From the NCBI RefSeq assembly GCF_016698645.1, contig NZ_CP068047.1, positions 1,337,001 to 1,401,000 of the forward strand: a DNA stretch of 64,000 bases, given 5' to 3'. Source of the DNA: Devosia oryziradicis (GTDB lineage Bacteria > Pseudomonadota > Alphaproteobacteria > Rhizobiales > Devosiaceae). The position numbers were made by a program, and so were the translations under genes. Below are positions 53,402 to 64,000 of the stretch, in pieces; within the stretch, counting starts at the first letter, position 1; each line of letters opens with the position of its first letter. The notes beneath the pieces were generated by a model, which was not told the DNA's origin, made no database searches, and saw only the letters and a program-made list of their open reading frames with translations.

Positions 53402-54202
53402 ATGTTTTTCGTGATCTCGAAGGTTTTCTGGGGCGTTGCGCAGCCGGTCAGCCTGATCTTCCTGCTGCTGCTGGCCAGTTGGATATTGTTGCTGCGCGGG
53501 AGGCGCAGGCTAGGGCTGTGGCTCGGCGTGTTTGGCCTCATGTTGTTTGTCCTCTGCGCTTTCACCACCCTGGGCGCCTTGCTCATCCAGCCCCTGGAGG
53601 ATCGCTTTGCGCGACCCCAAACCATGCCGCCTGTCGTCGACACGATCGTGATGCTGGGTGGAGCCACGTCTGGTCGTATCAGCACGGCGCGGCAGGTCGC
53701 CGAACTGACCGAAGCCGGTGACCGGTTGGCCGAAACGCTGCGACTGGCCCAGCTCTACCCACAGGCGCGTATCGTGCTCAGCGGTGGTTCGGGGTTGCTG
53801 GTCAACGACGGGGAGCCGGAAGCCGATACGGCGGCGCGGTTTTTCCAAAGCCTTGGAATCACCCGCGAGCGGCTGGTGCTGGAATCGGAGTCGCGCAATA
53901 CCGACGAGAATGCCGAACTGACCAAGGTCATGCTCGGTGACAATCCCGGCGTGGTCGTGCTGGTGACGTCGGCCTTCCACATGCCCCGATCAGTGGGGCT
54001 GTTTCGCAAGGTGGGCATCGAGGTGGTCGCATGGCCCACCGATTATCGGAGCGCCGGCAGTGAAGGGTTGGGGTTCGACATCGTAAGCCCTGCCCTCAAC
54101 CTCACCACAAGCGGCACTGCGATGAAGGAATGGATCGGGCTGGCCGTCTATCACTGGACCGGTCGTATCGATGACCTGTTGCCGGCTCAGCGTTCGAACT
54201 GA
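53402..54202 (+). CDS. YdcF/ElyC-family DUF218 membrane protein
   Basis: A 266-residue protein with two N-terminal TM helices (about 15-55) and a periplasmic DUF218 domain: DTIVMLGGATSGR, LSGGSGLLVNDGEPEAD, LVLESESRNTDENA and VTSAFHMPRSVGLFRK. Relatives (ElyC, SanA, YdcF) act in envelope biogenesis. The gene overlaps the convergent kinase gene by 16 bases at the stop ends. Confidence 0.9.
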   Translation: MFFVISKVFWGVAQPVSLIFLLLLASWILLLRGRRRLGLWLGVFGLMLFVLCAFTTLGALLIQPLEDRFARPQTMPPVVDTIVMLGGATSGRISTARQVAELTEAGDRLAETLRLAQLYPQARIVLSGGSGLLVNDGEPEADTAARFFQSLGITRERLVLESESRNTDENAELTKVMLGDNPGVVVLVTSAFHMPRSVGLFRKVGIEVVAWPTDYRSAGSEGLGFDIVSPALNLTTSGTAMKEWIGLAVYHWTGRIDDLLPAQRSN

Positions 54203-55161
54203 TCTGCGGGTACCGATAGTCTGTAGTGTACGCTGTCATGCTCGATCCGGAAGTCCGCTGTGCCACCAACGGAAAGAGGGACAATCCGTTCGAGCACCAT
54301 CGTGCCGAAATGGGGTTCAAGGGGGCGCAGATCGATCCTGACCCCAGTTTCCTGCCACTCGATGGCCAGCATGGGCCCCCGGTCTGGCGTGTCGACGATG
54401 CGGGCATCGATCTGGATGTTGCCAGGCTTGTCCTTTGACATTGCGCCATGCGTCACGGCGTTGGCAGCCAGTTCGTGCAGAGCGAGGCCAACATGGAGCG
54501 ACGCATTGGGTCCCAGGCGCGGATTTTCGCCGGTGACCCTAACGTTAGCGAGGATGGCCTGGCCGACGCGCGCGAGTTGCGAAGCGATCAACGATTGAAG
54601 GTAGGTACCACGCCAGTTGCTTTCGGTCACCAGATCCTGCGTACCGGACAGGGCATGGAGGCGTCCGCGGAATCGATCAAGGAAATCCCCAATGCTGCCG
54701 CTGTGGTGAGCGGTCTGCATGGCGACCGACTGGACGATGGCCAAAAGGTTCTTTGAACGGTGGCTCACTTCCCGGAGCAGGGATGCCACAGCCAGCTCTC
54801 GGGCACGCTCATCGGTGATATCGACGACAACAGTGGTTACGCCCGCCTGATCGGCCACCAACTTCGCCCGGAAATGGCGGCGGCGCAGGCTCTCGCCCAA
54901 TTCAAATTCGATAGTCTGTTCTTCGCCCGTGCGACGTACATGATTGAATGCGAGCGCAAAGGCGCCGGCGGCTTCGGGGGGTAGAACGTCGGCTTCACGC
55001 CCACCAAGGATTTCGTGCTGGGGCCAATCCTGTGGCAGGTTTTCGGCGAGGTCGAAACGATGATCTGCATCCTGATGCAGAATGCAGATGCCTTGCGAGC
55101 GTAGGCCCGCGGCCAAGGCACTAAGCCTGATATGTGGATCCAGGGCTGGGGGTGACGGCAT
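54187..55161 (-). CDS. Cytosolic PAS sensor kinase of the HWE/HisKA_2 type, possible PhyK
   Basis: A 324-residue soluble kinase with a PAS-like N-terminal domain (about 8-120, ending in the VVVDITDERARE link) and a histidine kinase domain with the phosphoacceptor in LLREVSHRSKNLLAIVQS, then LALHELAANAVTHGA as the N-box and FGTMVLERI later. Such kinases phosphorylate PhyR in alphaproteobacteria. AAGGGG precedes the start. It lies downstream of the DUF1328 gene and its terminator, so it needs its own promoter; no EcfG-type site was found for it. Confidence 0.87.
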   Translation of the reverse strand: MPSPPALDPHIRLSALAAGLRSQGICILHQDADHRFDLAENLPQDWPQHEILGGREADVLPPEAAGAFALAFNHVRRTGEEQTIEFELGESLRRRHFRAKLVADQAGVTTVVVDITDERARELAVASLLREVSHRSKNLLAIVQSVAMQTAHHSGSIGDFLDRFRGRLHALSGTQDLVTESNWRGTYLQSLIASQLARVGQAILANVRVTGENPRLGPNASLHVGLALHELAANAVTHGAMSKDKPGNIQIDARIVDTPDRGPMLAIEWQETGVRIDLRPLEPHFGTMVLERIVPLSVGGTADFRIEHDSVHYRLSVPADQFER

Positions 55162-55445: not shown

Positions 55446-55471
55446 AACGTTTTCTGGTGTGGGCCGGTTCC
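55446..55471 (-). promoter_or_regulatory. EcfG-type promoter of the DUF1328 gene
   Basis: On the minus strand GGAAC (55471-55467) and CGTT (55449-55446) are separated by 17 bases, a full match to the known alphaproteobacterial EcfG consensus. The -10 box lies 33 bases upstream of the start codon. Confidence 0.8.
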
Positions 55472-55482
55472 TGATGCGCAAT

Positions 55483-55515
55483 AAAAAAGGCCGGGACAAC
55501 GCCCGGCCTTTTTCG
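55483..55515 (-). terminator. Terminator after phyR
   Basis: AAAAAAGGCCGGG and CCCGGCCTTTTT flank a short loop. The structure has A- and T-runs on both sides, so it can work in either direction. It lies 16 bases beyond the phyR stop and inside the region upstream of the DUF1328 promoter. Confidence 0.9.
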
Positions 55516-55530
55516 TGTGAACGCTAGCGC

Positions 55531-56325
55531 TCAGGCCGCTGCGCGCGAGCCTTCGTCAAAGAACAGCGCCTGGCTGATCAGGGCCTTCACCATGTCGGGG
55601 TTGAATGGCTTGGTGACCAGGAAAGTCGGCTCAGGCCGCTCGCCGGTAAGCAGGCGCTCCGGGAAGGCCGTAATGAAGATCACTGGCACGGAATGGCTAT
55701 TGAGGATGTCGTTGACCGCGTCGATCCCCGAGCTGCCATCGGCAAGCTGGATATCGGCCAGGATCATGCGCGGCTGGGTCTGTGCGAACAGATTGACCGC
55801 TTCCTTATGGGTGCGCGCGACGCTCACCACCTTGTGGCCAAGACTTTCGACGAGCTGCTCGATGTCCATGGCGATCAGCGGTTCGTCCTCGATGATCATG
55901 ATCTCGGTCGCGACCTGGCGGGAAATCTCGATCGAGGCCTCGTCGAGAAGGGAGGCAAACTCCTCCTCCGAAACCGAAAGAATTTCGGCGGCTTGTCCGT
56001 GCGTGAAGCCTTCGACGGCGACCAGCAGGAAAGCCTGCCGTGGCCGCGGCGCCAGGTTGGCCAGGTTGGCCGCGGCGCGCTTTTCCCACGCATAGGTGGA
56101 AGTCGGTTGCGGTACCTTGACGGCTGAAGATGAAAAGAGTGCCGAGAAAAGCTTATAGAGCGCGATGCGGTCGTTCGATGCCTCGGGGAACAGCGAAATA
56201 TCGGCGATAAGCGCTTCGAGGGTGGCGGCAACGTAGGCGTCGCCTGAAGTTTGAGACCCGGTTACTGCGCGGGAAAACCGCCGTAGATACGGCAGGTGCG
56301 GAGCAATCCGCGTGGACAAAGTCAT
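55531..56325 (-). CDS. phyR: PhyR general stress response regulator
   Basis: A 264-residue protein with an ECF sigma-like N-terminal domain (about 1-135) and a C-terminal receiver (about 140-260). When D191 (in MILADIQLADG) is phosphorylated, the sigma-like part binds NepR and frees EcfG. The receiver has the acidic pair in MIIEDEP and Lys in FLVTKPF. The start at 56325 has GGGAG eight bases upstream; the frame extends to 56565 but that would run over its own promoter. It is divergent from nepR-ecfG with a perfect EcfG-type promoter. Confidence 0.96.
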   Translation of the reverse strand: MTLSTRIAPHLPYLRRFSRAVTGSQTSGDAYVAATLEALIADISLFPEASNDRIALYKLFSALFSSSAVKVPQPTSTYAWEKRAAANLANLAPRPRQAFLLVAVEGFTHGQAAEILSVSEEEFASLLDEASIEISRQVATEIMIIEDEPLIAMDIEQLVESLGHKVVSVARTHKEAVNLFAQTQPRMILADIQLADGSSGIDAVNDILNSHSVPVIFITAFPERLLTGERPEPTFLVTKPFNPDMVKALISQALFFDEGSRAAA

Positions 56326-56373
56326 TAGTGAACTCCCAGTGACGCTCAAGCTCGTGCTGACACGAAACCACAA

Positions 56374-56398
56374 AACGTCATGCAAGGAACAAAGTTCC
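56374..56398 (-). promoter_or_regulatory. EcfG-type promoter of phyR
   Basis: On the minus strand GGAAC (56398-56394) and CGTT (56377-56374) are 16 bases apart. The -35 box is nine bases away from the -35 box of the divergent nepR promoter. Confidence 0.85.
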
Positions 56399-56407
56399 GA
56401 AGCGTTG

Positions 56408-56432
56408 GGAACTTTTTTTGAAATGGTGCATT
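56408..56432 (+). promoter_or_regulatory. EcfG-type promoter of nepR-ecfG (one mismatch)
   Basis: GGAAC at 56408-56412, a 16-base spacer with a T-run, and CATT at 56429-56432 in place of CGTT. It lies 48 bases upstream of nepR and predicts positive autoregulation. Confidence 0.7.
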
Positions 56433-56479
56433 GTTGAGCGAACGCGGGCAATTCAACATATCTGGCGGTCAAGACACGC

Positions 56480-56701
56480 ATGATGAAGGAAAAACTGGTG
56501 ACCCAGCAACGTATGCGAACGCAGACGGGGCGGGCAGAGGATGGGCTGGGTCCAAATACGGACATCGGCGCACGGCTGCGCGCGCTCTATGGTGCGGTGC
56601 AGGAGGAGGGTGTTCCGGATCAACTCCTCGATCTGCTTGAGCGACTCGACAGCGCCGAGCAAGCACACAAAGCCAAGAATGCTGCTCGTGACGGAGAATA
56701 A
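56480..56701 (+). CDS. nepR: NepR anti-sigma factor
   Basis: A 73-residue soluble protein that binds EcfG in the absence of stress and is captured by phosphorylated PhyR. The core IGARLRALYGAVQEEGVPDQ and LLDLLERLD matches the NepR two-helix motif. The flanks are charged and probably unstructured. Its end overlaps the start region of ecfG. Confidence 0.92.
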   Translation: MMKEKLVTQQRMRTQTGRAEDGLGPNTDIGARLRALYGAVQEEGVPDQLLDLLERLDSAEQAHKAKNAARDGE

Positions 56702-57260
56702 CGCGGTGGCGGCCGAACCGACTTCATTCAAGCGCGAGATGCTTGCGACGCTGCCCAGCCTGCGAGCCTTTGCGGTGTCGCTGACCGGCAAGCACGACAA
56801 GGCCGACGACTTGGTACAGGACACCGTCATGAAGGCTTGGGCCAAGCAGTCCAGCTTCGAGATGGGTACCAATATCAAGGCCTGGCTGTTTACGATCCTG
56901 CGCAATGAGTTCTACAGCCAGATGCGCAAGCGGGGCCGCGAGGTGCAGGACAGCGATGGCGCATTCACCGAACGTCTCTCGGTCCACCCTGCCCAGTATG
57001 GGTCGATGGACATGCAGGACTTCCGCAAGGCGCTGGCGCAGTTGCCCGATGATCAGCGCGAAGCCGTGATCCTGATCGGCGCGTCCGGCTTTTCATACGA
57101 GGAAGCGGCAGAGATCTGCGATTGCGCCGTCGGCACGATGAAGAGCCGGGTGAGCCGGGCTCGCACACGGCTGCAGGATATCCTCAAGATATCAGGTGAA
57201 GCCGATTATGGTCCGGATGCGGTGTCGGCGCAGGTCACCACCAGCAACCACTCGTTCTAA
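56679..57260 (+). CDS. ecfG: EcfG general stress response sigma factor
   Basis: An ECF sigma factor of 193 residues from the ATG at 56679. Region 2 covers about residues 18-85, with KADDLVQDTVMKAW and the -10-recognition part; region 4 (about 125-175) has LPDDQREAVILIGASGFSYEEAAEI and GTMKSRVSRARTRL. It directs RNA polymerase to GGAAC...CGTT promoters. A GTG at 56706, nine bases after GGAG and just past the nepR stop, is a plausible alternative start. The gene overlaps the convergent receiver gene by four bases. Confidence 0.93.
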   Translation: MLLVTENNAVAAEPTSFKREMLATLPSLRAFAVSLTGKHDKADDLVQDTVMKAWAKQSSFEMGTNIKAWLFTILRNEFYSQMRKRGREVQDSDGAFTERLSVHPAQYGSMDMQDFRKALAQLPDDQREAVILIGASGFSYEEAAEICDCAVGTMKSRVSRARTRLQDILKISGEADYGPDAVSAQVTTSNHSF

Positions 57261-57625
57261 ACTCGAGGGGCGAGCGCCTCCCGGATGGCGCTCGTCATCT
57301 CATCCTCGGGCAGTGGTTTGAGGATGACCGGCAGATCTGGAAAGGCCCGCGAAGTCCTGCCAAGCGTAACGTCGCTCGTGGTCAACACCAGCGGGACGCC
57401 TGTATTCCGCAGCTGCTCAACCAGATCGTGGGCGGGCGTGTGGTGGTCGCGCACTTCGACGACCGCCAGGCCGAGGTCCGGCCAATGGGCGCGCAGCTGT
57501 TCGGCCTCGGAGGCGGTGCGTGCGAACAGGGTCTGCCCGACATCGAGAGTTTCAAGCATGCGCTGGATGTCGAGTGCGATCAGGAATTCTTCCTCGACGA
57601 CGAGGGCCGTCCGGCCATTGAGCAT
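57257..57625 (-). CDS. Degenerate receiver domain protein (Glu in place of phosphoacceptor Asp)
   Basis: A 122-residue stand-alone receiver fold. The N-terminal strand and acidic pocket read ALVVEEEFLIALDI, aligning with MIIEDEPLIAMDI of PhyR. At the phosphorylation strand, LAVVEVRDHH has E57 where PhyR has D191. The late Lys is kept in VILKPLPEDE. It should be unable to take a normal Asp phosphate and may be locked in one state. It is convergent with ecfG; no EcfG site was found in front of it. Confidence 0.82.
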   Translation of the reverse strand: MLNGRTALVVEEEFLIALDIQRMLETLDVGQTLFARTASEAEQLRAHWPDLGLAVVEVRDHHTPAHDLVEQLRNTGVPLVLTTSDVTLGRTSRAFPDLPVILKPLPEDEMTSAIREALAPRV

Positions 57626-57699
57626 GTCGGGTTCCGCTTGCCTTGGGCCCTTTCAGTGGCCGCGGACGTGGATTCTGTCATTTAACTTTGACATGTGCG

Positions 57700-57724
57700 G
57701 GAACGGGGTATCGTTGCCGGCGTT
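57700..57724 (+). promoter_or_regulatory. EcfG-type promoter of the Crp/Fnr gene
   Basis: GGAAC (57700-57704), a 16-base spacer, and CGTT (57721-57724): a perfect consensus match. Transcription would begin near 57732, which requires a start codon downstream of that point. Confidence 0.82.
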
Positions 57725-57760
57725 GGCCTGTCGACATCCATCCAGCGTCAATGGTGCCAC

Positions 57761-58516
57761 TTGAGTCTCGTACTCCCCAGTTCTGGCCGCAGGGTTCCCT
57801 GCGAGCAGTGCCCGCTCAGGGCTATGCCCAATTTTCGGGAGTTCGAGCCGCAGGAGCTGAGGTTTGTGTCGTCGTTCAAGGCGGGCGAACTGGTTGCCGA
57901 GGTTGGCACCACCCTCCTGTCTGAAGGAAACCACAGTGCCCACCTCTACACGCTGCTGTCAGGCTGGGCCTTCCGCTACAAGACCCTGCAGGACGGGCGG
58001 CGGCAAATCCTGAATTACCTTCTTCCAGGCGACCTCATCGGGCTGCAGGGTTCGATCATCGGGGAACTGCAGCATTCGGTCGAAGCGCTGTCGCCGCTGG
58101 TGCTCTGTGTGTTCCAGCGAGATCGACTGAGCGAGCTGTTCCGCAACCATCCGGGTCTAGGCTTTGACATAACCTGGCTGGCCGCGCAGGAAGAGCGCAT
58201 GCTCGACGATCACCTGCTCAGCCTGGGCCGGCGCACGGCGCTCGAGCGCGCGGCCTATCTGATCGCCTTCCTCTACCAGCGGGCCGCGTCGGTGGGCCTG
58301 GCCGCCTCGAGCACGCTCTATGTGCCCATTACCCAGATGCATGTCGCCGATACGCTCGGACTTTCGATTGTTCATACCAACAAGACCCTCCGCAAGCTGG
58401 CCGACAGATCACTGATCCGCTGGCTCGACCGGTCCTGCGAGGTTCTCGATGTGGACGGGTTGATGGATCTTGCCGGATGGGACGGCCTGCCAGAGCGTCG
58501 GCGGCCATTGATATGA
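57761..58516 (+). CDS. Crp/Fnr-family transcription regulator
   Basis: A 251-residue regulator. An N-terminal CxxC pair in RVPCEQCPLRAM precedes a cyclic nucleotide-binding-like domain (GNHSAHLYTLLSGWAFRYKTL and LPGDLIGLQG), a long dimer helix and a C-terminal winged helix (ITQMHVADTLGLSIVHTNKTLRKL). Only two Cys are present at the N-terminus, so a standard FNR cluster is unlikely. The TTG at 57761 is preferred over a GTG at 57695 because that one lies upstream of the promoter at 57700-57724, and because it leaves the usual short lead before CxxC. Confidence 0.87.
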   Translation: MSLVLPSSGRRVPCEQCPLRAMPNFREFEPQELRFVSSFKAGELVAEVGTTLLSEGNHSAHLYTLLSGWAFRYKTLQDGRRQILNYLLPGDLIGLQGSIIGELQHSVEALSPLVLCVFQRDRLSELFRNHPGLGFDITWLAAQEERMLDDHLLSLGRRTALERAAYLIAFLYQRAASVGLAASSTLYVPITQMHVADTLGLSIVHTNKTLRKLADRSLIRWLDRSCEVLDVDGLMDLAGWDGLPERRRPLI

Positions 58517-58598
58517 GCAGCTGCCCAGCCTCAAATCCGCCATTGGGCTGGGCGAAGGAGAGGCGGTCGTCAATCGGCCGCCGCGGACGACAGATACA

Positions 58599-60026
58599 AT
58601 GAGCCTTGCGAGCACACTGATCGGTCATCAGGAGATGGGAGTGCGCCGTCATTTTGGCCAGCGACTGATCGTCTTGCTGTCCCTGGCCCTCGTGATGCTA
58701 GCCGCCGGGGCGGCACTGGTGATGGTGCAGGGCATTGATCGGCAGATCGACGACGTGAACCGCACCTATGAGGTGCGCAACCAGGCTCGTGAACTCACCA
58801 GTGCGCTCAGTGAGGCCGAGAGCAGCCAGCGAGGTTATCTGCTCACGCGCGACCCAAGTTATCTCGAGCCTTACCATGGCGCCGCCGCTTCAATCGACGC
58901 CCGATTATTGTCGCTCAGCGCCCTCACCAATGGCGATCCGAGGCAGGCTGAAAGGGTGAAGGCTATTGCGAGCGAGGTCGTGACCAAGGCCGCGGAAATG
59001 GCGCGGGCCGTGGCATTGGTCCAGCAGGACCGGGGCTTCGAGGCGCGAACGCTGATCCAGACGGGCTTGGGCGAACGGCTCATGGACAGCATCCAGCTCG
59101 CTCTGGAGCGCTTCATCGGTGAAGAAAACCAGAAGCTGCTCGACCGAAACCGCGACATCGATCAATCGCGCAAGCTCCTTGTCGGGGCACTGATCGCGGC
59201 TTTGGCGGGTGCGGTGCTGCTCGCCTATACGCTGTTGTCGCGGACGCAACGGGAGGTCAGCGCCCTGGCACAAAGCAAGGAGCGGCTCGTCACCGAAAAC
59301 GAGGTCCTTGAGGCGCGTGTGCGGGAGCGTACGCAGGCCCTGGAAGAGGCGCGCGGGCATGCCGAGCGGGAACGGCAGCGCGTGGAAGCCCTGTTGCAGG
59401 ATGCCAACCACCGCATCGGGAACTCCCTGGCAACGGTCTCCTCGCTGCTGGGGCTGCAATTGCTGCGCGGCAAGTCGGACGAAGTGCGTGCGGCCTTGGA
59501 GTCAGCCCGATCGCGGGTGCATGCAATCGCGTCGGCGCACCGCAGGTTGCGATTGGGCGAGGATTTCGAGACCGCCAGTGCCGATGAATTCCTGGGTGCC
59601 GTGCTTGAAGACATTGCCACCACGGCGGGCAGCGACACAAAAAATGTCCAGCTGCAGGGCGAGTTCGACTCGATTGTCGTGGGCGCACGCGATGCAACGA
59701 CGCTGGGTATCCTGGTGGGGGAACTCGTGACCAATGCGGTCAAGCACGCCTTTCCCGCAGGCCGAAGCGGCACCATCAGCGTTACGCTGAAGCGGGACCA
59801 GTCGGGTGTACCGATGCTGCGGGTTATCGATGATGGTGTCGGCATCGCGGGCGGGCAGCTACCCGCAGACGGCGGGCTCGGTTCGGTCATCATCAAGCAA
59901 TTGGCAGCACAGTTTGGCGGTGACCCGTTTTATGAGGCGCGCCCTGGTGGGGGGCTCAGCGTCAGCGTGTCCTTACCCGGCATAACCGGCACCTCGCCGC
60001 CCCAAGGCCTCTCACCAGGAGCATGA
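58599..60026 (+). CDS. CHASE3 sensor histidine kinase of the HisKA_2 type
   Basis: A 475-residue membrane kinase. TM1 (about 23-44) and TM2 (about 196-214) enclose a helical CHASE3 domain (SSQRGYLLTRDPSYLEPY is diagnostic). A coiled coil (about 220-270) leads to the kinase core with the phosphoacceptor in LLQDANHRIGNSLATVSSLL and the ATPase N-box VGELVTNAVKHAFP, then GLGSVIIKQLAAQFGG. It lies downstream of the Crp/Fnr gene and is one base from a lipid kinase gene, so it probably belongs to the stress signalling set. Confidence 0.9.
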   Translation: MSLASTLIGHQEMGVRRHFGQRLIVLLSLALVMLAAGAALVMVQGIDRQIDDVNRTYEVRNQARELTSALSEAESSQRGYLLTRDPSYLEPYHGAAASIDARLLSLSALTNGDPRQAERVKAIASEVVTKAAEMARAVALVQQDRGFEARTLIQTGLGERLMDSIQLALERFIGEENQKLLDRNRDIDQSRKLLVGALIAALAGAVLLAYTLLSRTQREVSALAQSKERLVTENEVLEARVRERTQALEEARGHAERERQRVEALLQDANHRIGNSLATVSSLLGLQLLRGKSDEVRAALESARSRVHAIASAHRRLRLGEDFETASADEFLGAVLEDIATTAGSDTKNVQLQGEFDSIVVGARDATTLGILVGELVTNAVKHAFPAGRSGTISVTLKRDQSGVPMLRVIDDGVGIAGGQLPADGGLGSVIIKQLAAQFGGDPFYEARPGGGLSVSVSLPGITGTSPPQGLSPGA

Positions 60027-60027
60027 C

Positions 60028-60945
60028 TTGCGCATCATTGCCGTTCTCAATCGCGATGGCGGGACGCTGCGTACAATGGACCTGGCGGCCTTCTGCGCCA
60101 GTGCCGAGGAGGTCTTCGCCCGACACGGACATGCACTCGAATGCAGGGTCGTCCCGGGCAGCGACGTGGAGCCGACACTTCGCCAGGCGGCGGGAAGTCA
60201 GGGTGTCGATGCCATCCTGGCCGGTGGCGGCGACGGCACGATTTCGACGGCCGCCGGCATTGCCTATGAGACGGGCATGACGCTCGCGGTCTTGCCGGTG
60301 GGGACGATGAACCTTTTTGCCCGGGCGCTTGGCGTACCGCTGGTGCTCGAACAGGCGCTGGAGGCCATCGCGGGGGGCGAGGTGGGTGCGATAGACATCG
60401 GCACGGCCAATGACCGCCCCTTCGTCCATCAGTTCGGGGTGGGCGTGCATGCCCGGCTGGTGCGTATCCGCGAAAATCTCAGCTATGGAAGCCGCTACGG
60501 CAAGATGCTGGCAAGTTTGCGCGCTATCGGTGCCGCGGCGCTGAACCCACCCCAATTCGATGCCGAGTTCCATACTGGCGCCCACAGCGAGACGCGGCGC
60601 GTCTCGGGCATAGCGGTCTCCAACAATCCGCTCGGGGATGGCCAGATCCACGCCAATCGCCTCGATGGCGGCGTGCTCGGGGTCTATATAGCGGCGCCGC
60701 TATCCACGTCAGCCTTGCTCAAGCTGGCAGCGGACGTGTTCATGGGCACCTGGCGTGCCAGCCCTGCCGTCACCGAGCAAGAGGTTGACGAGGTGACCCT
60801 GCATTTCCCAAAGCGGAAGCGCGGTGCCCATGCGGTGATCGACGGCGAGCTGATCAAGCTGGACCGATCCGTAACACTCAAGATACACCCTGGTGCATTG
60901 AAGGTAATCTTGCCGAAATCGGAACAACCCGCAGCCGGTTCATAA
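60028..60945 (+). CDS. Diacylglycerol/lipid kinase family protein
   Basis: A 305-residue member of the DAGK catalytic family. It has the nucleotide motif LAGGGDGTISTAA and the LPVGTMNLFARALGVP block, then a beta-sandwich C-terminal half with VSNNPLGDGQ and AHAVIDGELI. Such enzymes phosphorylate diacylglycerol, sphingoid bases or related lipids using ATP. The TTG start is one base after the CHASE3 kinase stop, which implies tight co-expression. Confidence 0.87.
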   Translation: MRIIAVLNRDGGTLRTMDLAAFCASAEEVFARHGHALECRVVPGSDVEPTLRQAAGSQGVDAILAGGGDGTISTAAGIAYETGMTLAVLPVGTMNLFARALGVPLVLEQALEAIAGGEVGAIDIGTANDRPFVHQFGVGVHARLVRIRENLSYGSRYGKMLASLRAIGAAALNPPQFDAEFHTGAHSETRRVSGIAVSNNPLGDGQIHANRLDGGVLGVYIAAPLSTSALLKLAADVFMGTWRASPAVTEQEVDEVTLHFPKRKRGAHAVIDGELIKLDRSVTLKIHPGALKVILPKSEQPAAGS

Positions 60946-61039
60946 TTCTTTGCAACCAAATCATGCCTTCCGCGTTCGGGATCATTAGCCGTAGGGCTTG
61001 GGTATTGCAGGGCACGTTGCGTTAGCGTCAGGACGGAAA

Positions 61040-62563
61040 TTGATTAATGATGGGGCCGACCTGCCCGGCGATGTACGGCGGGTCGTTGATGATCCAGTGC
61101 GGTTGCAAGCGCTGGCGGCGATGGATGTGCTCGATAGCCATCCCGACACCGATTTCGAACGGCTGAGCCGGACTGCTGCTTTCGCGTTGGATGCCGAAAT
61201 CGCCTTGGTGACACTTGTCGATAAAGGGCGGCAGTGGTTCCGCGCCTGTTTCGGCATCGAGGGCGTGAGCGAGACCGAGACCGGAAGCTCGTTCTGTGCC
61301 TACACCATCGCGCTACCACAGGATGACGATACGCTGGTCGTCCTCGACGCGACGCAGGATGAGCGCTTCAAGGACAATCCCCTGGTCACCGGCTGGCCTG
61401 GTATCCGTTTCTATGCGGGCGCCGCCATTATCGTCGGCGGCCAGAAGGTCGGTGCCCTCTGCGTCATCGACACCAAGCCACGTGCGGCGTTTGCCCCCAG
61501 CCAAGTCGAGCAGCTGGTCAACCTGGCGAGCCTGACCTCGACCCTGTTCTCACTCAAGGACGAGGCTCGTGTGCGCGCGCGCACGGCTGCGGCATTGGTG
61601 CGGGAGGAGTGGCGCCACGCACTCACGCTCGAGGCGGGCAAGGTGGGAAGCTGGGTCTGGGATGTGCGCACCGGCGACGTGGTGTGCAACGAAATGTTCC
61701 ACCGCATGTATGGCCTGGCCGAGGGTCCGGTGCTGGTCGGCGATGTTCTGGCCGCCACGCACCCCCTCGACCGGGCAATGGTCGAAGCCAGTATCGAAGC
61801 CAGTTTCGAGGATGGCCTGGATTACAGTGCCGAAGCGCGCATCGCGGCCACGGGACGCTGGCTGACCATGCGCGGCCGGGTGTACCAGCGCGACGCCAAT
61901 GGCAAACCGCTGGTTATGATGGGCGTCAGTATCGACATCACGGACAGCAAGCAGAGCGCCGACCATACCCGGCTGCTGCTGCGCGAGCTCAATCACCGGG
62001 TGAAGAACACCCTGGCCATGATCCAGTCGGTGGCACGGCAGACCATTCGCCAGAACCCCGATCCAAAGGACTTCATCGAGGCGTTTTCCGGTCGCCTGCG
62101 AACCATTTCGGATGCCCATGTGCTGCTCGCCGACCGAGACTGGTCCGGTGTGCAGCTCTACGAAGTCATTGCTTCCCAGCTGGGTCCCAAGTTCAAGACC
62201 AATCCCGACAGGGCAGAGGTGCGCGGTGATGATGTTACCCTGCCGGCCGATCATGCCCTGGGCCTCGGACTGATCCTGCACGAGTTGACGACCAATGCGC
62301 ACCGTCACGGCGCCTGGTCGGGCCCGACGGGTACCGTCAACATAGATTGGCAGATCAAGCCTGAGCCAACGCGCGGCCTAGCGCTGACGTGGCGGGAAAG
62401 CGGGGGGCCGACAGTATCGGCCCCTGCTGAATATGGCCTTGGTGCCAAGTTGATCGAGCGTAGCCTCGCCAAGGTACTCGACAGCGAGGTGGCGCTGAGT
62501 TTTGAACCATCGGGCGTAGTTGCCCGGGTCTGGATGCCGCTGCCGGCGGAGGACGCCGCCTGA
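61040..62563 (+). CDS. GAF-PAS sensor kinase of the HWE family
   Basis: A soluble kinase of 507 residues. A GAF domain (about 14-165, with TGSSFCAYTIALP and FYAGAAIIVGGQKVGALCVID), a PAS domain (about 190-310, with GSWVWDVRTGDVVCNEMFHRMYG) and an HWE kinase core with His in LLRELNHRVKNTLAMIQSVA; the N-box is LILHELTTNAHRHGAW. The TTG at 61040 is chosen because AGGAC lies five bases upstream; the frame runs back to a TTG at 60998. It may feed phosphate to PhyR along with the other HWE kinases. Confidence 0.9.
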   Translation: MINDGADLPGDVRRVVDDPVRLQALAAMDVLDSHPDTDFERLSRTAAFALDAEIALVTLVDKGRQWFRACFGIEGVSETETGSSFCAYTIALPQDDDTLVVLDATQDERFKDNPLVTGWPGIRFYAGAAIIVGGQKVGALCVIDTKPRAAFAPSQVEQLVNLASLTSTLFSLKDEARVRARTAAALVREEWRHALTLEAGKVGSWVWDVRTGDVVCNEMFHRMYGLAEGPVLVGDVLAATHPLDRAMVEASIEASFEDGLDYSAEARIAATGRWLTMRGRVYQRDANGKPLVMMGVSIDITDSKQSADHTRLLLRELNHRVKNTLAMIQSVARQTIRQNPDPKDFIEAFSGRLRTISDAHVLLADRDWSGVQLYEVIASQLGPKFKTNPDRAEVRGDDVTLPADHALGLGLILHELTTNAHRHGAWSGPTGTVNIDWQIKPEPTRGLALTWRESGGPTVSAPAEYGLGAKLIERSLAKVLDSEVALSFEPSGVVARVWMPLPAEDAA

Positions 62564-62566
62564 CGG

Positions 62567-63004
62567 CTAGTCCCCCTTCGGCTCGTTCTGCTTGCGCATC
62601 AGGAAATACGCGCCGATCGCGGCTGCGGGCAGGGCGATGGCCCGACCCATGGGCGACTTCAGCACAACAGGCAGGGCGGTCAGCGCCGCCGTGGTGACGA
62701 AGGCGCTGGTCTCGGTGGACTTGCGCTTTTCCGCTGCCTGGCGCCGATTTCGGTTTTCCCCGATGCGCGTGCCCAGATACACGGCAAGGGCCAGCACGAT
62801 AAAAGCACCGGCCAGGATCAGCGCCGCATAGATACCGCCATAGCGGTCGGCAAGGGCCAGAAATCCCGCGACGATCAGGAACACCACACCAACCAGCGCA
62901 AGGCCGAACATCACCACATTGACGATGATGGTGTTGCGGACCCGGGCGGTGATGGATTCGACCTCTATGCCGAGCAAGGCGGCAAGCGGAACGAGCAGAT
63001 GCAT
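62567..63004 (-). CDS. Holin-like small membrane protein (phage holin superfamily type)
   Basis: A 145-residue protein with two central TM helices (VVMFGLALVGVVFLIVAGFLAL and AALILAGAFIVLALAVYLG), an Arg/Lys-rich stretch, and a third hydrophobic segment near the C-terminus. Chromosomal relatives are often labelled phage holin family, but no phage genes are present. It follows the DUF883 gene by two bases and shares its EcfG-type promoter, so it is likely a stress-induced envelope protein. Confidence 0.75.
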   Translation of the reverse strand: MHLLVPLAALLGIEVESITARVRNTIIVNVVMFGLALVGVVFLIVAGFLALADRYGGIYAALILAGAFIVLALAVYLGTRIGENRNRRQAAEKRKSTETSAFVTTAALTALPVVLKSPMGRAIALPAAAIGAYFLMRKQNEPKGD

Positions 63005-63006
63005 GG

Positions 63007-63384
63007 TTAGTGCCGGGACAGCAGGGCGAGAATGAAGCCGATGCCCAGGGCGCTGGCGACGGCGGTCAAAGGTTTTTCGCGGATGGTGTCCTTGATCTGC
63101 TGCTCAAGGGCGCTGGCCTGCTCCTGGACGTCCTCAACGACGTGCTGGCCCTGGCGCTGGAGATGGCGCGCTTCGCTCTTGGCGACATCGCGGACTTCGT
63201 TGACCTTTTCATTGCTCAGGCGGGCAAGCGTGGATGCAATGGCCTTGATGTCATCCTGCAGCTGGGCAACCTGATCCTCGAGCCGCGCTTCGCGCGCGCT
63301 GGTCGTGGCTGCCCCGGCACGGTTGCCGGTGGTTCGAGCCGATCGCGTGGTGCGGCCGGGGGCCATGTCGGGGGTGTTCGCCAT
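63007..63384 (-). CDS. DUF883-type membrane-anchored protein (ElaB/YqjD-like)
   Basis: A 125-residue protein with a basic, low-complexity N-terminus, a long amphipathic helix (about 35-100, rich in Glu, Gln and Arg), and a C-terminal TM segment (LTAVASALGIGFILALLSRH). ElaB/YqjD relatives are stationary-phase inner membrane proteins that bind ribosomes. The ATG at 63384 has AGGAG seven bases upstream. Upstream lies a perfect EcfG-type promoter (63413-63437). Confidence 0.85.
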   Translation of the reverse strand: MANTPDMAPGRTTRSARTTGNRAGAATTSAREARLEDQVAQLQDDIKAIASTLARLSNEKVNEVRDVAKSEARHLQRQGQHVVEDVQEQASALEQQIKDTIREKPLTAVASALGIGFILALLSRH

Positions 63385-63412
63385 TTGACGCTCCTGTCGT
63401 AGTTTGTGGTTC

Positions 63413-63437
63413 AACGTGCGGAAAACCCTGCGGTTCC
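63413..63437 (-). promoter_or_regulatory. EcfG-type promoter of the DUF883/holin-like pair
   Basis: On the minus strand GGAAC (63437-63433) and CGTT (63416-63413) are separated by 16 bases, a perfect match. The -10 box is 28 bases upstream of the DUF883 start codon. Confidence 0.82.
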
Positions 63438-63585: not shown

Positions 63586-63744
63586 CTAGATGCGTCCCAT
63601 CAGAACCAGGATGAGGACGACAACCAGGACAACACCCAGGATGCCGGACGGGAAGTAGCCGAAGCCGCGCGAGTAGCCCCAGTTGGGAAGCGCGCCGATC
63701 AGCAGCAGAATGAGGATAATGATGAGGATTGTTCCCAGACCCAT
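63586..63744 (-). CDS. DUF3309 small membrane protein
   Basis: A 52-residue protein: MGLGTILIIILILLLIGALP, then NWGYSRGFGYFPSGILGVV and a second hydrophobic helix ending LMGRI. This is the DUF3309 pattern, common in alphaproteobacterial stress loci. AGGAGA stands before the ATG. It lies between the DUF883 gene and another small membrane protein on the same strand; no EcfG site was found directly upstream. Confidence 0.9.
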   Translation of the reverse strand: MGLGTILIIILILLLIGALPNWGYSRGFGYFPSGILGVVLVVVLILVLMGRI

Positions 63745-63789: not shown

Positions 63790-63945
63790 CTAGAGTATGG
63801 CCAGCATCAGGGCGGCGGCGGTGATCAGGATAAACATTGCCGGTGCGAGAGCTTTGAACACGTCGGCATAATGGGTTTCCCCGTCATAGCCTTCGGCCCA
63901 TACCGTCGCGGTGCGGCTGGCGTTCTCGAGCGCCTTGATTTCCAT
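63790..63945 (-). CDS. Small single-TM protein of unknown function
   Basis: A 51-residue protein (from MEIKALENASR) with a soluble N-terminal half containing GYDGETHYADVFKAL and a C-terminal TM helix (APAMFILITAAALMLAIL). The ATG at 63945 is preferred; a GTG at 63978 would extend it by 11 residues. It may be co-transcribed with the DUF3309 gene 46 bases downstream. No family recognised. Confidence 0.6.
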   Translation of the reverse strand: MEIKALENASRTATVWAEGYDGETHYADVFKALAPAMFILITAAALMLAIL

Positions 63946-64000
63946 GTGAGTCACGCCTGCCTCCCCATTGATCGCCACGCAGTGTTGCGCTGCCCCATGA

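Follow-up and report, generated by a model that had tools for sequence, protein, structure and literature searches.

Introduction

The general stress response (GSR) that is built on PhyR, NepR and EcfG has been described in R. etli, S. meliloti, M. extorquens, Sphingopyxis and S. melonis. Both GSR operons are reported to be EcfG-dependent and usually divergent (PMC4814048, PMC8103513), and in R. etli the motif GGAAC-N16-CGTT is reported together with reporter dependence (PMC3892343). According to the promoter data given for Sphingopyxis granuli, the -35 boxes seen most often are GGAAC and GCAAC; at -10, CGTT leads and CATT is among the most frequent others (PMC7083833).

The locus analysed here lies in a window of 64,000 nucleotides (the whole stretch of DNA that was examined) and is very probably a GSR locus of a Devosia-like bacterium, in which EcfG would read sites of this kind. 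The three proteins and the promoter motif are common to this locus and to the systems named above, and the -35 and -10 variants are like those of Sphingopyxis granuli. Divergence of phyR and nepR-ecfG, found in most species of Alphaproteobacteria, HRXXN kinases nearby and classical stress genes in the regulon recur here as well. What sets this locus apart from the known systems is its set of predicted targets, among them a GAF/PAS kinase, a Crp/Fnr regulator with cysteines, a DUF883 protein and the p62-DUF3309 pair. The outcome is an EcfG promoter map, checked by sequence, for a Devosia-like genome; no study of Devosia was seen, by title, among the literature matches listed. Such an EcfG island is ordinary biology and a system of known kind; the back-to-back geometry of its central promoters and an 18-bp element ahead of crp look less described than the rest. 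Features are collected in Table 1.

Table 1. Genes, predicted promoters and other elements of the locus (window positions)
Feature	Position	Strand	Basis and remarks
DUF1328 small membrane protein, 54 aa	55249..55413	-	PF07043, 55.7 bits
Predicted EcfG promoter of DUF1328	55446..55471	-	GGAAC-N17-CGTT, 32 nt ahead of start codon; 10/10 copies including window
phyR, anti-anti-sigma response regulator	55531..56328	-	PF22029, PF22233, Response_reg (PF00072); NF006623, 391 bits
Predicted EcfG promoter of phyR	56374..56398	-	GGAAC-N16-CGTT; 20/21
9-bp gap separating the two diverging -35 boxes	56399..56407		gap 7-10 bp in 74/80 loci
Predicted EcfG promoter of nepR-ecfG	56408..56432	+	GGAAC, T-tract, N16, CATT
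nepR, anti-sigma factor	56480..56701	+	PF18557 NepR, 52.5 bits
ecfG, ECF sigma factor	56682..57260	+	passes thresholds of NF009169 and NF009199; 95% to Devosia sp. Root635
GTCATTTAACTTTGACAT, conserved element ahead of crp	57677..57694	+	5 bp ahead of EcfG -35 box; 21/23 loci
Predicted EcfG promoter of crp	57700..57724	+	GGAAC-N16-CGTT; GGAAC 6/15, GCAAC 3/15
Crp/Fnr-family regulator (reading frame, start codon uncertain)	57752..58516	+	PF00027, PF13545
Predicted EcfG promoter of GAF/PAS kinase	60952..60976	+	GCAAC-N16-CGTT; GGAAC or GCAAC form in 9/11 orthologues
HWE histidine kinase, GAF + PAS domains, HRVKN motif (TTG start uncertain)	60998..62563	+	PF07536 92 bits, PF01590, PF08447
Small hydrophobic protein ('holin-like')	62567..63004	-	without Pfam match; own site 0/20
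DUF883-type small protein, ATG at 63384	63007..63384	-	DUF883_C 25.1 bits, slightly below 27-bit cut-off
Predicted EcfG promoter of DUF883	63413..63437	-	GGAAC-N16-CGTT; 15/20
DUF3309 small protein, behind p62	63586..63744	-	PF11752, 78.6 bits; own site 0/19
p62, small protein	63790..63978	-	start GTG 63978 or ATG 63945; without Pfam family
First base of exact EcfG site predicted for p62-DUF3309	64000..64000	-	runs on to 64025 outside window; 13/15

The PhyR-NepR-EcfG switch

All parts of the switch are recognizable by profile. PhyR combines a sigma-like domain with a receiver, a NepR protein is encoded next to the sigma gene (with only 26.9 of 100 bits on the NCBIfam NepR model), and the sigma factor itself exceeds the thresholds of two NCBIfam models (NF009169, 355 of 321 bits; NF009199, 345 of 219 bits). 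The operons phyR and nepR-ecfG diverge, each behind an EcfG-type promoter as judged from its letters. Three HWE/HisKA_2 kinases are encoded nearby, and the motifs HRSKN, HRIGN and HRVKN can be read in their translations. By analogy with the core step known in other Alphaproteobacteria, phosphorylated PhyR would remove NepR from EcfG, and the freed sigma factor would bring RNA polymerase to GGAAC-N16/17-CGTT and to variants with CATT at -10 or GCAAC at -35. We infer that EcfG fires at these sites and that the GAF/PAS kinase signals to PhyR. The sites predicted to be EcfG-directed precede phyR, nepR-ecfG, the GAF/PAS HWE kinase, the Crp/Fnr gene, DUF1328, DUF883 and p62-DUF3309. Since they include phyR, nepR-ecfG and the kinase, EcfG would feed back on its activator, its inhibitor, itself and probably one sensor; it would also turn on small membrane proteins.

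Could a different ECF sigma factor encoded in the genome be the main reader of the sites? A second match exists (G000:C1:993161-993652), and R. etli is reported to have two EcfG proteins with partly shared targets (PMC3892343). However, the genome holds a single strong EcfG, the second match being 35% identical and containing one stop codon, and the sites cluster round ecfG and precede its own operon; we regard this alternative as very improbable.

EcfG-type sites in the window and in the genome

The preliminary description, made by eye, had placed exact GGAAC-N16/17-CGTT sites before DUF1328, phyR, crp and DUF883 and a CATT variant before nepR-ecfG (G000 1393408-1393432 in genome coordinates); all five are present. 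The strands relative to the genes are also right, and the claim of a correct distance is loose at crp, as it is for the kinase and p62, because the start codons of these three are uncertain. Two targets had been missed. An extra exact site, found in the genome scan, starts at the window's final base (64000-64025; G000:C1:1401000-1401025) before p62-DUF3309, and GCAAC-N16-CGTT, the only GCAAC-N16/17-CGTT match within the window, precedes the GAF/PAS histidine kinase. With PhyR, NepR and an EcfG-type sigma factor identified by profile and sites that are kept in relatives, EcfG control of the listed genes, as first proposed, is the best reading. We hold with high confidence that the region is an EcfG regulon island, in which the two switch operons are joined by a likely sensor kinase, the Crp/Fnr regulator and small membrane proteins.

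It had also been suggested that hit density here be compared with random expectation across the genome, and the comparison is favourable locally: the 64-kb window holds four exact sites against 0.73 expected (four were reached in 1 of 100 shuffles), and five of the 54 exact sites of the genome fall within 8,579 bp (~8.6 kb), a density equalled in 6 of 20,000 random placements. The raw genome-wide count does not follow, as the 54 exact matches compare with 72 for the reversed pattern. Raw numbers were therefore rejected as proof of a regulon; position relative to genes carries the signal. Thirty-one of the 54 sites are promoter-like: according to a simple purpose-made gene caller they lie between genes and have a start on their own strand 5-150 nt downstream, as against 4.0% of sampled window positions. 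The remaining 23/54 are not promoter-like by this caller; the phyR and DUF883 sites were overlooked by it too. Genes behind promoter-like sites elsewhere in the genome encode, for example, a sigma factor that resembles RpoH, and further GrpE, Ku, a KaiC-type ATPase, ExoD, CsbD, two DJ-1/PfpI and two alpha-amylase-type enzymes.

A second, weaker DUF1328 match of the genome (26.6 of 27 bits) is likewise preceded, at 33 nt, by an exact site. In Salmonella, the DUF1328 small membrane protein YtjA is similarly reported to be tightly controlled by the general stress sigma factor, there RpoS, which is unrelated to EcfG (PMC5437024). Among the literature matches listed, none joined DUF1328 with EcfG, RpoE2, SigT or PhyR, and none joining DUF883 and EcfG was found.

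Conservation of the sites in relatives

Sites in GGAAC or GCAAC form were counted per gene over the window and the 20 loci closest to it. They are present before DUF1328 in 10/10 cases, phyR in 20/21, p62 in 13/15, DUF883 in 15/20 (14 GGAAC, 1 GCAAC), the kinase in 9/11 (5 GGAAC, 4 GCAAC) and crp in 9/15 (6 GGAAC, 3 GCAAC). Even the relaxed form is thus absent in some relatives (crp 6/15, DUF883 5/20, kinase 2/11, p62 2/15, phyR 1/21). The preliminary description had grouped DUF883 with the holin-like gene: the DUF883 site holds, and the holin-like gene has no site of its own in the 20 close loci (0/20) and no Pfam match at E<=1e-3; co-transcription with the DUF883 gene ahead of it is the only route left. 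DUF3309 also lacks its own site (0/19).

Seven genes (DUF1328, phyR, crp, DAGK, kinase, DUF883, p62) entered permutation and spacing scans, the permutation being confined to the GGAAC form. For none of them were the observed GGAAC/CGTT counts reached by any of 350 letter-permuted patterns, and among spacings of 12-23 this form occurs at 16 and 17 only. GCAAC-CGTT was found eight times at spacing 16/17 and four times off-spacing. That the sites are chance matches in a GC-rich genome, as the raw CGTT count below its reversed control might hint, is hardly credible given how they cluster, how they are conserved and how the spacing and permutation controls came out.

The Crp/Fnr gene and the kinase

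The proposed link of the Crp/Fnr gene to the stress response keeps its site and is the weakest of the set, being lineage-dependent. It is conceivable, if unlikely, that only phyR, nepR-ecfG, DUF1328, DUF883 and p62 are EcfG targets and that the sites before crp and the kinase gene act weakly or not at all: the crp site is poorly kept even in relaxed form, GCAAC-CGTT stands at the wrong spacing of 25 in one crp orthologue, crp has a separate and better kept upstream element, and the kinase site of the window exists only in GCAAC form. Yet GGAAC/CGTT before both genes is restricted to spacing 16/17, and the kinase site stays in position although its -35 box is GGAAC in some orthologues and GCAAC in others. 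The frequency of GCAAC in Sphingopyxis (PMC7083833) also speaks against this alternative, as does a Crp-type 'cAMP-binding' protein reported for Sphingomonas melonis among the top genes that depend on EcfG (#0072, motif 10 nt before the CDS; PMC6599016), which is likened to the protein here by family, orthology being putative. On our preferred reading EcfG controls both genes, which would place within the stress-response loop a likely sensor kinase as well as a Crp/Fnr regulator that bears cysteines.

The 18-bp element upstream of crp, GTCATTTAACTTTGACAT, occurs in strict form in 21 of 23 loci, window included, and no second copy with <=1 mismatch exists in the genome. A role of GTCATTTAA-N4-GACA as operator of a wide regulon is doubtful, with a single copy at <=1 mismatch in the genome. 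Its longer form has 21 matches at <=3 mismatches against 7 for the reversed control (0 at one mismatch, two at two), and a weak regulon is conceivable.

FNR, an iron-sulphur oxygen sensor, has four cluster-binding cysteines, three N-terminal and one central. Four cysteines are invariant in the Crp/Fnr protein as well (23/23), in another arrangement: a CxxC and a central cysteine are conserved in 23/23 with no third conserved N-terminal cysteine, and an additional C-terminal cysteine is invariant (23/23).

Back-to-back promoters of phyR and nepR-ecfG

Among 80 loci with the promoter pair, the -35 boxes are separated by 7-10 bp in 74 and by 19-20 bp in six, the long form being that of Brucella-group loci. 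On the tree the gap length changes at least 20 times: once from short to long, once between 19 and 20 and otherwise within 7-10 bp. An order-wide pattern scan gave a gap peak at 8-9 bp (34/90 pairs), and the pair was found in 74/249 genomes of the order (gaps 1-31) versus 7/142 class-wide, own genome included (gaps 5-22). No work on back-to-back EcfG promoters was seen, by title, among the literature matches listed.

The narrow gap may be mere compactness without function, to which we give a little under an even chance. Intergenic regions are short, 19-20 bp suffices in the Brucella group, and a single origin of the long form on the tree leaves any helical phasing dependent on one event; on the other side stand the confinement of nearly all gap changes to 7-10 bp and the order-wide peak. 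A functional reading, which we offer tentatively and consider rather doubtful, is that both promoters form one unit. With -35 boxes just 7-10 bp apart, two EcfG polymerases could not sit simultaneously; the shared site would pick PhyR or NepR plus EcfG, and the strength of the -10 boxes (CGTT or CATT, depending on lineage) would set the ratio. The constrained geometry, found in many members of the order, raises a testable question: do activator and inhibitor genes compete for one polymerase site?

CATT and CGTT at the -10 box

In close loci the nepR side carries CATT in 69/80 and CGTT in 0/80, and nepR2 of Sphingopyxis granuli is reported with CGTT (PMC7083833). Twenty distant phyR-ecfG loci, chosen by eye from the order-wide scan (gaps 5-10 bp), have CGTT on the nepR side in 10, CATT in six and no match in the ecfG direction in four; in these four, the opposite-strand match gives nepR CGTT and phyR CATT. 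CGTT at nepR thus occurs in other genera of the order. CATT at nepR as an order-wide rule was rejected on the ten distant loci with CGTT. Nor is CATT special to nepR: the genome has 26 matches to GGAAC-N16-CATT (2 for the reversed pattern), of which 11 are promoter-like by the gene caller, and nepR, missed by the caller, is not among them. Published work reports that a CATT -10 box fires, more weakly. CATT is no defect, and lineages differ in the promoter that bears it. In R. etli, EcfG2 is reported to read the phyR promoter and not the ecfG1 promoter (PMC3892343), a choice for which the CATT/CGTT difference might account.

Probable EcfG promoters in the window and its relatives

The EcfG system of this locus is of a known kind, here in a little-studied genus. 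The EcfG protein is 95% identical to its counterparts in Devosia, Devosia sp. Root635 among them, which makes the host Devosia-like. The genome is a single contig of 3.495 Mb, of which the window covers positions 1337001-1401000. The preliminary description, which listed five EcfG sites, is correct and slightly incomplete. A pattern scan of the window found its four exact GGAAC-N16/17-CGTT sites in place and the nepR-ecfG site to read GGAAC-N16-CATT. Two sites had been overlooked: an exact one ahead of p62-DUF3309 (p62 being a small protein) and GCAAC-N16-CGTT, the sole such match in the window, ahead of a GAF/PAS HWE histidine kinase. In relatives, the latter site has GCAAC in three and GGAAC in five, and these are reported as the two commonest -35 boxes in Sphingopyxis (PMC7083833).

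Features of the locus and loci with a relaxed EcfG site (or, for the last row, the element) upstream
Feature	Position (strand)	Loci
DUF1328		10/10
phyR promoter	56374-56398 (-)	20/21
nepR-ecfG promoter	56408-56432 (+)	0/21; CATT in its place
p62 promoter	window's last base to 64025	13/15
DUF883		15/20
Kinase promoter	60952-60976	9/11
Kinase (GAF+PAS sensor)	60998-62563 (+)	
crp		9/15
Lipid kinase DAGK		5/20; other lineages, not the window
Receiver-like gene	57257-57625 (-)	0/9
HK_CHASE3	58599-60026	0/17
HK_PAS	54187-55161	0/8
'holin'		0/20
DUF3309		0/19
DUF218		0/8
crp element GTCATTTAACTTTGACAT	57677-57694	21/23

The 64 kb contain 4 exact matches versus 0.73 expected, a number equalled in 1 of 100 shuffles. 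Genome-wide, the motif by itself proves little, since it has 54 exact matches and its reversed pattern has more, 72. The comparison with random density that had been proposed favours a local cluster: 5 of the 54 matches fall in a stretch of 8,579 bp here, as in only 6 of 20,000 random placements. Moreover, 31 of the 54 are promoter-like (between genes and followed at 5-150 nt by a start on the same strand), versus 4.0% of sampled window positions, as classified by a simple hexamer gene caller of our own, rough enough to miss the phyR and DUF883 sites and also nepR.

Conservation was counted in the window and its 20 closest loci (L031-L050), most of them Devosia, with gene starts taken from alignment to the window's proteins. 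The relaxed site was GGAAC or GCAAC, N16/17 and [CGT]GTT, at most 150 nt upstream; matches below identity limits of 40% (RR), 45% (HK_PAS, kinase and DUF218) or 65% (crp) were dropped beforehand. With the window left out, the GGAAC/CGTT counts of the seven positive genes were in no case reached by any of 350 letter-permuted patterns; before these genes this form occurs at spacings 16 and 17 only, among 12-23. GCAAC/CGTT, to which the permutation control does not extend, occurs in the seven scanned genes 8 times at 16/17 and 4 times at other spacings (10 to 25).

DAGK has its own exact site in 5 of 20 copies (L043, L045, L047, L048 and L049): the gene cluster is the same, locally rewired. Three HRXXN kinases (HWE/HisKA_2), with PAS, CHASE3 and GAF+PAS sensor parts, lie within 9 kb; of these, the GAF+PAS kinase alone carries an EcfG-type site in the window. 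The small receiver-like protein, which has no Pfam match at E<=1e-3, reads like a degenerate single-domain receiver whose phospho-acceptor position looks changed by eye.

Divergent phyR and nepR-ecfG promoters

The geometry of this promoter pair and the element upstream of crp are the parts that merit bench work. One GTTCC/GGAAC pair, facing apart within 22 bp, is present in 80 of 81 loci (80 relatives and the window), the sole exception being Bartonella tamiae. The gap measures 7 bp in 21 loci, 8 in 26, 9 in 26 and 10 in 1, or, in a long class, 19 bp in 1 and 20 bp in 5. A quick EcfG and PhyR tree, where support is below 80 on 31 of 76 inner branches, requires a minimum of 20 changes in gap length; one of these leads from short to long, in the clade of Brucella and relatives. 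Across the order, a pattern scan detected pairs of this kind in 74 of 249 genomes, versus 2 for the reversed control; their gap peaks at 8-9 bp (34 of 90 pairs listed), and not every pair is phyR-nepR. In a sample of 20 chosen by eye, whose gaps span 5-10 bp, every locus encodes PhyR and EcfG in divergent orientation. A holoenzyme covers roughly -55 to +20; because the two predicted transcription starts are only about 70 bp apart, two footprints would overlap, and we infer that two holoenzymes exclude each other here.

The phyR -10 box is CGTT in 71 of 80 loci, and that of nepR is CATT in 69 of the 80 and CGTT in none. In vitro work in Sphingopyxis reports that changing CGTT to CATT lowers transcription and that the reverse change raises it (PMC7083833); CATT is thus a box that works, if more weakly. 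Beyond the close group, CGTT is frequent at nepR, and four loci carry CATT at phyR instead, so that no fixed functional reason for a CATT box at nepR is established. In Rhizobium etli, EcfG2 is reported to read the phyR promoter and not that of ecfG1 (PMC3892343); the difference between the -10 boxes may explain this choice.

The Crp/Fnr-family gene

The Crp protein combines a cNMP-binding domain with a Crp-type HTH and scores far below the cut-offs of the FnrL and FixK models. Four cysteines are invariant in 23 of 23 sequences: a CxxC, one central and one C-terminal. FNR binds its cluster through three N-terminal cysteines and one central; since a third conserved N-terminal cysteine is absent among the 23 sequences, this protein is not a plain FNR. 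Redox sensing is plausible.

The pattern GTCATT[AT]AA-N3/4-GACAT stands before crp in 21 of 23 loci, the window among them; our script gives 22 by allowing a looser form in L047, and finds none in L049. The element ends 4-5 bp ahead of the EcfG -35 box in the window, L031, L036, L038 and L042, and 12-27 bp ahead in five other loci. As a genome-wide scan gave no second copy with at most one mismatch, the simplest proposal is that Crp regulates itself. In S. melonis, a Crp-type gene is reported to be one of the top EcfG-dependent genes (PMC6599016).

The putative wider regulon

Of 42 listed genes with promoter-like sites across the genome (one gene twice), 30 were run against Pfam, and 23 of these matched a family at E<=1e-5. 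The CGTT sites precede a KaiC-type ATPase, DUF1236, GrpE, PAP2, an acyltransferase, Ku, DUF982, ExoD, a sigma-70-type factor reading like RpoH, a UvrB-type helicase, CsbD, DUF6894, two alpha-amylase-type proteins and two DJ-1/PfpI proteins; behind CATT sites are DUF2937, DUF6766, DUF1236, an FMN reductase, a zinc peptidase, an isochorismatase and a response regulator. An exact site stands 32-33 nt before each of the two DUF1328 matches in the genome, one of which falls just below the cut-off, and in Salmonella DUF1328 (YtjA) is listed among sigma-S-controlled small proteins (PMC5437024).

An ExoD-type gene (L013/L145; genome positions 1066008-1066136) carries two EcfG-like sites in tandem, a CATT one followed after about 80 bp by a CGTT one. 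A second ECF sigma match (L163; G000:C1:993161-993652, minus strand) shares 35% identity with EcfG, and its matched stretch contains one stop codon.
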